A stretch of DNA of 64,000 nucleotides, taken from contig NC_013216.1 in the NCBI RefSeq assembly GCF_000024205.1, positions 2,294,001 through 2,358,000 on the forward strand. Direction: 5' to 3'. Below the pieces are notes generated by a model. The model made no database searches. It had not been told where the DNA came from and was given only the letters and a program-made list of their open reading frames with translations. The DNA is from Desulfofarcimen acetoxidans DSM 771 (lineage in GTDB: Bacteria; Bacillota; Desulfotomaculia; Desulfotomaculales; Desulfofarciminaceae). The position numbers and the translations under genes were made by a program. This document shows, piece by piece, positions 46,164 to 49,225 of this stretch (the first letter of the stretch is position 1; each line of letters begins with the position of its first letter).

Positions 46164-46658
46164 TCACAATATGTTAGGGAATTGGTAAGCAGTAAGAGGT
46201 ATTGTTGAATAGGGGGTGAAGTTGTCACGATACTCTCTCGATATAATCGCAGGTAACATACTATTTGTGCGAGTAATTTTGAACTTGTTTTGGTAATGGT
46301 TTGTCCAAGGGACACTATTTTTAGGATTATTGGTTGCAATGCTCGTGAAAGTGATGCGCTCTCTTCTTCTACTTCTTTCCTGAGTGTTAATGGCGGAATT
46401 TTCTAGTGCGGTATGTAGATTACCGATATTGACACGAAAATTCTCAGACTCTGAAGAAGTACCACTTATTAAACTTAGGATGTAATGTTTAAAATCATTA
46501 TCTTCATTTTTAAGTTTATCAATAATGACTCTGTCAGTTCTCTCAGCGTATACAGATCTGTACCAGCTATTAAATGCAATCCATGATTTTATAAATGCGG
46601 AGAAAAAGTCTATATTAATGTCTATTAGCCCCACCCAATCCCGGTAATTATTAGCCAT
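46164..46658 (-). CDS. Hypothetical protein, HEPN-like N-terminus
   Basis: 164 residues. FFSAFIKSWIAFNSWYRSVY followed by DRVIIDKLK recalls HEPN-like proteins found beside restriction genes, but this is only resemblance. The start overlaps the end of the HsdS-like gene by 8 bases, so the two were co-translated. The C-terminal 40 residues look irregular. Confidence 0.5.
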   Translation of the reverse strand: MANNYRDWVGLIDINIDFFSAFIKSWIAFNSWYRSVYAERTDRVIIDKLKNEDNDFKHYILSLISGTSSESENFRVNIGNLHTALENSAINTQERSRRRERITFTSIATNNPKNSVPWTNHYQNKFKITRTNSMLPAIISREYRDNFTPYSTIPLTAYQFPNIL

Positions 46659-47184
46659 TCAAATTCACTCCCAGCTTGTCCACCTCGGCATTTAGCCAAG
46701 AAATAGCGTTATTCTCGTTTGTTTCAATTGCATTTTCAATACTTCTCCTTGCTAAATCCAAAATAACTAGGGCCTTTTTGCGTGGTTCAAAGGCCTTTTT
46801 TACTTTTTCTTTTATTTGCCGTTGAATATATTCTTCCACAATTGGAATCAGAACATTTTTTATTTGCTCAAATCGCCAATGGAGTATAATAGATCCTCCC
46901 ACATCTCTTTTCATTTGTTGCCGGATAACAAATGAGTTTAGAACTAATGTTAAGTATTCTGGCAATATACAATCAGTTTTTACCGTAAGCCTTAAAATAC
47001 CACCAGACGGTATCATTTTTATCGGCTTCTCATCAATGTAATATGCGATTCCAGGACTTCCATCTTTACTAAACAGTATCTCACCAGTATTTGGCTGATT
47101 ATTTATAAGTTTCATCATAACTACCGGCACCCATCGCACGTTTTCGAAATTCTTCAGCCCGGTCTTTCTCTCCAGCTCAGGCAT
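46651..47184 (-). CDS. Type I restriction specificity (HsdS)-like half protein
   Basis: 177 residues. GEILFSKDGSPGIAYYID, GGILRLTVKTDCILPEYLTL and GSIILHWRFEQIKNVLIP are typical of one target-recognition domain, followed by a helical arm. A full HsdS has two such halves, and no hsdM or hsdR is near. It is probably a truncated leftover: an AlkD fragment lies directly upstream. Confidence 0.65.
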   Translation of the reverse strand: MPELERKTGLKNFENVRWVPVVMMKLINNQPNTGEILFSKDGSPGIAYYIDEKPIKMIPSGGILRLTVKTDCILPEYLTLVLNSFVIRQQMKRDVGGSIILHWRFEQIKNVLIPIVEEYIQRQIKEKVKKAFEPRKKALVILDLARRSIENAIETNENNAISWLNAEVDKLGVNLNG

Positions 47185-47436: not shown

Positions 47437-48729
47437 TTAGCTATTATTAATTACAGTTTTTGAAACATACCTTCGTCTGTAAATACTAGAAATTATGCCC
47501 AAGATTGCAGCATTGAAAATTAACGGCGTACCACCAAAACTCATAAAAGGTAGCCCAACCCCACTTATAGGAGCCAACCCTAAATTCATGAATATGTTCC
47601 ATAAAAACTGGAGGGCAAAGATGGTAACAAATCCACTAATAAGAAGTCTGGCATAATTGTTTTTTACTACTGATATTATACTTGATATACGTATTATATA
47701 TATAACAACCAAAGCAGCCAGAACACTCCCTACAATCCAACCAAAAGTAACAGTTATGTAGGAAAACATAAAATCAGTATGCAGGTAGGGTATATTTTTT
47801 AGTTTTTGAGTGAATCCATGTCCATAAAGCCCAGAATTGCTAATTAACTTGCTTAACTGTATAGTCCAGCCACTACCTAAAAATTCTTTTTCGGGGTTAA
47901 TAAATAATCTGTATGGGGTACTTATAATTGATAACATAATCATCATACCTGAGACTATACCAATATACACTAAGGAATTTCTGTATCTTGCCCCTGAAAC
48001 TATCATAAGTATAATACAAGTTATAGAGTAAATAATGCTATTAGACATTGAACCAATTACCAAAATAAGTATTAGCGGCACCACGCATAATAACAAGCCC
48101 TGAAATAACTTCTTAGGTTTATTCCAATCCCAATTATTAAAAATGCCGGATAAAGCTATGCTTAATAATAATGGGCTAATATCTACAATATTAAGATAAA
48201 GCGGCCCTATTCTTAAATAGAGATTATCATTAAAACGTTGACCCAAAATAATTACAATCACTAAAGTTAATACGCTAACCAGATAGATATGTTTAGAATA
48301 GGGTTCTAATTTTCTATAATCAAAAAAATATAATCCAGTTCCAATGACTGCTCCAATAATTATGAAAATTAAACTTCTAGTAAATATAGGGATAGGGGTA
48401 GCTGTGAACAATCCTTGTTTTTCAATAAAATGCATTGCTAATAAACCTAAGCTAACGAAAATAAGGCTTATAGATAAGATACTCCATTCTGGTTTCGGTT
48501 TATGAACTTTGTTAAGTTGTTTTCCTACTATTTCTGCACTACCCATCTGATTAATTGCTTTGCTAACAACTTCATTCTCAGAAAAACCATCCAACAAATA
48601 TCCTTCAACAATCTCTTGAAAATGGCTTATAAGTTCAATTTTAATTTCATTATGAACTTCACGGAATTTTATTTGTGAGCATACGTCATTGATATATGCC
48701 ATTATTTTATCATTCTCAGTTATGACCAT
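47437..48729 (-). CDS. SEDS (FtsW/RodA/SpoVE) protein with N-terminal HAAS-like domain
   Basis: 430 residues. Residues 1-~75 are a soluble helical domain (NDVCSQIKFREVHNEIKIEL … AINQMGSAEIVGKQLN) of the HAAS/permease-prefix type usually linked to PadR-controlled transporters. Residues ~85-425 hold about ten membrane helices with SEDS landmarks: YLHTDFMFSYITVTFG containing the conserved Asp, and VGLPFMSFGGTPL. SEDS proteins polymerise lipid II glycan strands. It overlaps the padR gene by 10 bases, so both are made together. No penicillin-binding partner is nearby. Confidence 0.85.
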   Translation of the reverse strand: MVITENDKIMAYINDVCSQIKFREVHNEIKIELISHFQEIVEGYLLDGFSENEVVSKAINQMGSAEIVGKQLNKVHKPKPEWSILSISLIFVSLGLLAMHFIEKQGLFTATPIPIFTRSLIFIIIGAVIGTGLYFFDYRKLEPYSKHIYLVSVLTLVIVIILGQRFNDNLYLRIGPLYLNIVDISPLLLSIALSGIFNNWDWNKPKKLFQGLLLCVVPLILILVIGSMSNSIIYSITCIILMIVSGARYRNSLVYIGIVSGMMIMLSIISTPYRLFINPEKEFLGSGWTIQLSKLISNSGLYGHGFTQKLKNIPYLHTDFMFSYITVTFGWIVGSVLAALVVIYIIRISSIISVVKNNYARLLISGFVTIFALQFLWNIFMNLGLAPISGVGLPFMSFGGTPLIFNAAILGIISSIYRRRYVSKTVINNS

Positions 48730-49064
48730 ACATAAGCCTCCCTCGTTAGAAATTTATCAACTGCTGAACGAAATGTTACCCACTCTTGTTGTTTATCCTT
48801 TAAATAAAGGTTCCCTTTTTTGGTAATTTGATAATACTTTCTTTGACGACTGCCTTCATTTCCCCACCAATTGGCGTTAATCATGCCATCAGCCTCTAAT
48901 GAGTGTAAAATAGGATAGAGTGTTCCTTCTTTAAATTTAAAAACCCCACTCGATTTGTTTTCAATTTCCTTTATCATTTGGTAGCCGTACATTGGTTCTC
49001 GGTCTAGTAAACTTAAAACCAGAATAACCGTACTTCCTTTTAGCAACTCTTTATTTACACTCAA
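48720..49064 (-). CDS. PadR-family transcriptional regulator
   Basis: 114 residues with the PadR winged helix: VILVLSLLDREPMYGYQMIK, then EGTLYPILHSLEADGMI and RKYYQITKKG. PadR repressors often control the membrane protein encoded just downstream. The 10-base overlap with the HAAS-SEDS gene supports that. The upstream bases 49085-49115 (TATCTATACATAGCATATCTAGG) are a likely operator region. Confidence 0.9.
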   Translation of the reverse strand: MSVNKELLKGSTVILVLSLLDREPMYGYQMIKEIENKSSGVFKFKEGTLYPILHSLEADGMINANWWGNEGSRQRKYYQITKKGNLYLKDKQQEWVTFRSAVDKFLTREAYVWS

Positions 49065-49225
49065 GAAAATCCCCCTTTCGCAACAATCATATATCTATAC
49101 ATAGCATATCTAGGTATTATTTTATTACATAATAGCTTTAAAATCAATTCCTTTTCGATACTTTTAGTTTAATTAAGAGTGCTGCCTTTTTAAGCCAGCT
49201 TATCTTCTCTACACTAATGAGTGAG

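Follow-up and report, generated by a model that had tools for sequence, protein, structure and literature searches.

The closest described relative of the locus analysed here is the LstR/Lmo0421 pair of Listeria, studied by Hauf et al. in 2019 (PMC6624303). In Listeria monocytogenes, the two genes belong to the sigC-lstR-lmo0421 operon, and LstR represses its own operon. Lmo0421 was found unable to replace FtsW1 or the RodAs, and its over-production conferred no cell-wall-drug phenotype; the idea that it could be an inhibitor-resistant back-up was raised by the same authors (PMC6624303). Two other SEDS genes of Listeria, ftsW2 and rodA3, are induced by cell-wall drugs (PMC6686043), and a study of Listeria L-forms handles lmo0421 as RodA and uses it in complementation (PMC4858229). 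As lmo0421 is a HAAS-SEDS homologue, the complementation part of the latter study may need rereading. The HAAS domain was named by Ravi et al. in 2024 and consists of three helices, the third being kinked at a GxP motif; in the part of their article considered here, HAAS is stated to be always accompanied by a PadR-like gene (PMC11237479). The same part lists HAAS-FtsW/RodA/SpoVE fusions, citing CAC98500.1 and the Hauf study, and proposes that HAAS and PadR form a signalling pair, as an alternative to two-component systems. It names the architecture, and treats neither the active site nor the operator of the sub-group described below. The PadR-coupled HAAS-SEDS architecture is already published (PMC6624303, PMC11237479), a point that the first-pass annotation of our locus had missed.

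The window, that is the whole stretch of 64,000 nucleotides analysed here, comes from Desulfofarcimen acetoxidans DSM 771. Open reading frames and profile scans confirmed a padR-SEDS gene pair on its minus strand, and the features of the pair are reported in Table 1. Two traits noted in the first-pass annotation were recovered: the padR gene overlaps the SEDS gene, by 10 nt, and no PBP gene lies nearby. Indeed, a search of 43 neighbourhoods (at most 19 kb each, window locus included) yielded no PBP gene. A common third operon gene was also sought and not found: beyond padR, neighbours vary by locus, save for an ECF sigma gene in part of the group. Among solved structures, the best relative of the window PadR is 5dym (E 1e-18). 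The genome, a single contig of 4.55 Mb, contains 3 further SEDS genes, all located elsewhere. Spo0A is present in it and Omp85 was not found, so that the host is probably a single-membrane spore-former; for the same reason, an outer membrane is unsupported as a context for the pair.

Table 1. Features of the padR/HAAS-SEDS locus (positions in the window)
Feature	Positions	Strand	Basis and remarks
HAAS-SEDS gene	47437..48729	-	ORF, ATG start, 430 aa; 10-nt overlap with padR
SEDS multi-TM domain, aa 82-420	47470..48486	-	PF01098; RodA structures
D319, conserved SEDS catalytic Asp (E. coli RodA Asp262), of YLHTDFMF	47773..47775	-	alignment
S227, place of PDLGT Asp (E. coli RodA Asp159)	48049..48051	-	alignment
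aa 180-189, place of canonical QPSExxK; reads N180-I-V-D183-I-S-P186	48163..48192	-	ungapped alignment
HAAS / permease-prefix domain, aa 1-78	48496..48729	-	NF038403 profile and AF2 model
padR, PadR-family winged-helix repressor	48720..49064	-	TTG start, 114 aa; PF03551 E 2.6e-25
RBS of padR, AAAGGGGG	49071..49078	-	sequence; 6 nt ahead of TTG start; strong
Dyad operator ATACCTAG-ATATG-CTATGTAT, 21 bp	49097..49117	-	starts 1 nt behind -10 hexamer; probable PadR site
Putative -10 hexamer TAAAAT	49119..49124	-	consensus scan
Putative -35 hexamer TTGATT of padR promoter	49142..49147	-	consensus scan; 17-nt spacer to TAAAAT

The architecture and the gene pairing are those of the HAAS-PadR systems described in the part of PMC11237479 considered here. 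As in the window, padR overlaps the HAAS-FtsW/RodA gene in the LstR-Lmo0421 pair, and both pairs fall into the same group of the tree, despite an identity of only about 27%. They differ in what precedes the repressor gene: the Listeria record has the published order sigma-PadR-FtsW/RodA, with an ECF sigma gene ahead of padR and no dyad operator, whereas the window locus has the operator and no sigma gene before padR.

A soluble HAAS-type prefix fused to the SEDS domain had been proposed for the window protein, and our analysis bears this out. The NCBIfam profile NF038403 (perm_prefix_1) matched residues 19-73 with an E-value of 6.8e-7 and 29.0 bits in the protein scan, for a cut-off of 30, and reached 33.4 bits, above the cut-off, in the genome scan; it also matched 20 of 20 relatives scanned (E ≤ 0.01). 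The Pfam HAAS profile PF22564 gave weak matches in 10 of 20 relatives scanned and none in the window protein. An AF2 model of residues 1-80 was confident (pLDDT 90.6) and all-helical, as expected of a HAAS-type fold, with helices at 7-18, 23-46, 51-62 and 65-75, the last two corresponding to a third helix kinked at G63-S-A65. The model has the three-helix layout with kinked third helix described for HAAS. The third position of the GxP motif is P in 50 of 78 distinct relatives and A in the window protein and 17 other relatives, and E32, H36, G63 and G69 are invariant in all 78. No convincing solved relative of the model was found with Foldseek (best E 1.7) or VIA-align (best Z 6.2, as helical bundles are expected to give), a PDB profile search with the prefix returned nothing credible, and the solved DUF1048 structure 2O3L was absent from the Foldseek, VIA-align and HMM matches. 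As no solved structure matched, the prefix is assigned to HAAS from its sequence profiles, its layout and its linkage to PadR.

The pair is widespread outside this genome. We sampled 82 full-length HAAS-SEDS genes across Firmicutes, and 80 of them follow padR immediately, at distances of -76 to +24 nt, most of which are overlaps. This pairing is far beyond chance; an ECF-type sigma gene stands ahead of padR in 32 of the 82. In two genomes (loci L081 and L082), a gene for a membrane protein of ~200 aa, VanZ-like by eye, precedes padR. Relatives were detected in 23 of 113 genomes of the host's order, and, when the Listeria protein served as query, in 57 of the 199 genomes from the order to which G440 belongs, under E-value limits that admit some partial copies in both counts. 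Viral contigs gave two weak partial SEDS-like matches only. A tree built on the SEDS part alone separates the HAAS-SEDS proteins, by one branch, from 12 canonical SEDS proteins (SH-aLRT 98). A single origin of the group is likely on the basis of this tree, rather than proved, since the canonical sample was small (n=12), tree searches were quick, and one long-branched member, L050, adjoins the canonical set.

Degenerate copies were also encountered: one is split by a stop or frameshift (L016/L094 in genome G052, with a TAG inside), another lacks its N-terminal third (L011/L093 in G020), and no intact padR was found beside either. Such copies might suggest a decaying or neutral gene pair devoid of function. 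The intact frames, the invariant HAAS residues and an operator conserved across very divergent genomes make this highly improbable.

This operator lies directly behind the putative padR promoter TTGATT-17-TAAAAT. Such consensus matches alone are weak; here, the hexamers are supported by the adjoining conserved operator, and TATAAT-like hexamers occur at a similar distance from it in many related upstream regions. The generalised pattern, ATACMTAG-N5-CTATGYAT, has one perfect site in the 4.55-Mb genome, ahead of padR. The only other copies in the genome were 2-mismatch matches, at a rate similar to that of a reversed-pattern control, and weaker PadR sites may exist elsewhere in the genome. Allowing for 3 mismatches, the operator was recovered ahead of padR in 37 of the 45 relatives that lack a sigma gene, compared with ~1% of shuffled regions, a count that is partly circular since the pattern was derived from 22 near relatives; outside these 22, it matched 16 of 23 relatives. 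In sigma-linked loci it was present in 1 of 31, and this near-absence agrees with what is known from Listeria, where control is different. The dyad is the probable binding site of PadR, and autorepression through it is well supported by these comparisons. The regulation by PadR suggested in the first-pass annotation thus very probably takes the form of autoregulation of the pair. A dyad operator behind the padR promoter is new relative to published work.

The membrane part of the protein shares PF01098, the ECL4 Asp, the Pro and the SYGG loop with RodA, FtsW and SpoVE, and differs from them by its extra HAAS domain, by the absence of a PBP gene nearby and by the lack of the QPSExxK and PDLGT motifs. 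PF01098 covers residues 87-420 (E 3.8e-40, 138.4 bits for a cut-off of 26.4), and the RodA structures 6pl5 and 6bar align to residues 78-421 (E about 3e-25). Scores with the RodA and FtsW equivalogs TIGR02210 and TIGR02614 are far under their cut-offs (141.5 versus 336.7 and 126.4 versus 337.5 bits, respectively). A full-length AF2 model, based on a 3-sequence alignment, was unreliable in the TM part (pLDDT 47), and the structure of this part is therefore not used for any claim.

The conserved SEDS Asp of YLHTDFMF, reported as kept in the first-pass annotation, is indeed there: D319 aligns with the catalytic Asp of Thermus RodA, which is altered in the 6pl6 and 6bas chains (reading HTAF). P314 is kept in 70 of 78 distinct relatives, and the SYGG loop is mostly kept. 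From the IGP motif through QPSExxK, the window protein aligns with canonical SEDS without gaps, and the Q, E and K of this motif, present in 12 of 12 canonical sequences, are N180, D183 and P186 in the window protein. The Lys occurs in 0 of 78 distinct relatives, versus 12 of 12 canonical proteins, its position being occupied by Pro in the sub-group of the window and mostly by Leu in the sigma-linked sub-group. The Gln and Glu of QPSExxK and the PDLGT Asp are mostly replaced across the group, the latter being retained in 10 of 78 distinct relatives. The two Glu following HTDF, again present in 12 of 12 canonical sequences, are V327 and T328 in the window protein and mostly Tyr, Thr or Ser in the group. 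Lmo0421 resembles the window protein in keeping the catalytic Asp and missing the Lys, the Glu and the PDLGT Asp. Judged from these residues, the polymerase site is part preserved and part rebuilt in the HAAS-SEDS group. What is new here is the existence of one group apart from canonical SEDS, in which the cavity Gln, Glu, Lys and Asp are lost and the catalytic Asp is mostly kept. We also observed that several residues between PYRL and FINP, present in relatives and canonical SEDS, are missing around residues 273-279 of the window protein; they include an Arg conserved in canonical SEDS.

Mutational data exist for several of these positions. Changes of Asp262 or Pro257 abolish the activity of E. 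coli RodA and changes of Gln111 or Asp159 lower it, and changes of the Glu and the Lys severely affect the in vivo function of SpoVE (PMC10449877). In FtsW, W138, Q147, D297 and Y379 are critical, and E150A still complements (PMC8765783). Having noted that the Asp is kept, the first-pass annotation had suggested that the protein could be an inducible glycan polymerase. If of the ordinary kind, this would be a back-up that acts when the housekeeping SEDS proteins are inhibited. The SEDS fold and the Asp loop speak for this reading, and drug-induced SEDS genes do exist in Listeria (ftsW2 and rodA3, PMC6686043). However, the equivalents of Lys117, Glu114, Gln111 and Asp159 are replaced across the group, changes at these positions lower in vitro activity or function in a sporulation assay (PMC10449877), no PBP is encoded nearby, and the Listeria homologue neither substitutes for FtsW1 or the RodAs nor gives a phenotype with the cell-wall drugs tested (PMC6624303). 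The claim is left unsupported. A partly rebuilt site makes a plain back-up polymerase quite unlikely, in agreement with the complementation failure in Listeria.

The catalytic Asp itself is not universal. Among 78 distinct relatives, 64 have Asp at the D319 position, 7 have Glu (L007, L009, L038, L040, L130, L133 and L140), 5 have Asn (L054, L078, L089, L151 and L152) and 2 have Gly (L014 and L115), which corresponds to at least 11 changes scattered on the tree. L007, which has Glu, is 63% identical to the window protein. Since 14 of 78 relatives have another residue in its place, this position may not be catalytic throughout the group. These substitutions, the loss of several cavity residues, the lack of phenotype of over-produced Lmo0421 (PMC6624303) and the view of HAAS-PadR as an alternative to two-component systems, put forward in the part of PMC11237479 considered here, would all suit a non-catalytic pseudo-enzyme, whose SEDS part would bind a lipid-linked precursor or an antibiotic-lipid complex and signal through HAAS to PadR. 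We regard this sensor as rather doubtful: HTD is still among the best-kept SEDS loops, and since the sole perfect operator lies ahead of the pair itself, a protein that does nothing but sense would control hardly more than its own production.

The gene pair, its operator, the residue losses and their conservation, all read from sequence, rather suggest, with a probability of roughly 0.6, an autoregulated cassette for envelope stress in which a repurposed SEDS protein is the effector. We infer that PadR, bound to the dyad behind its own promoter, would keep the two-gene operon repressed until a ligand or a membrane condition relieves repression. The HAAS domain, at the cytoplasmic N-terminus, would probably contact PadR and report the state of the membrane protein to the switch. 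With a single perfect operator in the genome, the HAAS-SEDS protein would be the main output of this switch, and its membrane part would then have to be the effector. The SEDS part retains two loops, that of the catalytic Asp and SYGG, without the conserved residues of the lipid II cavities (Gln, Glu, Lys and Asp); given this loss, it most likely acts on an altered lipid-linked substrate or acceptor, instead of being a spare RodA or FtsW. The repurposed-effector cassette is favoured by the combination of one predicted strong repressor target, a putative HAAS-PadR feedback and the absence of a PBP nearby; the order that we favour places it ahead of a pure sensor, and an ordinary inducible polymerase far behind both. 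More tentatively, the group could be a SEDS branch with new chemistry, in which the Asp loop is kept and the Lys/Glu/Gln lipid II cavity is rebuilt: under its own HAAS-PadR switch, it might transfer a lipid-carrier glycan to a different acceptor, or act on damaged or modified lipid II under antibiotic attack. This is possible, though we would not presently bet on it.

Antibiotics target SEDS proteins, and members of the HAAS-SEDS group are labelled 'FtsW/RodA/SpoVE family' in public records. Our results call for caution before they are annotated as wall polymerases: partial loss of the polymerase active site in a large PadR-coupled SEDS group would explain the negative complementation in Listeria. 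The group is also a natural experiment from which one could learn the SEDS residues that serve each step, the 14 of 78 relatives varying at the D319 position being useful natural variants for the role of the Asp in the group, and the operator offers a direct handle for an inducer search.

Just downstream of the pair, also on the minus strand, a 164-aa ORF without family match (46164-46658) overlaps a 177-aa fragment of a type I restriction specificity subunit (46651-47184; PF01420, E 5.4e-7), which also matches the C-terminal part of the MADS5 defence subunit profile. Together, these ORFs (46164-47184) look like what is left of a locus for restriction or defence.
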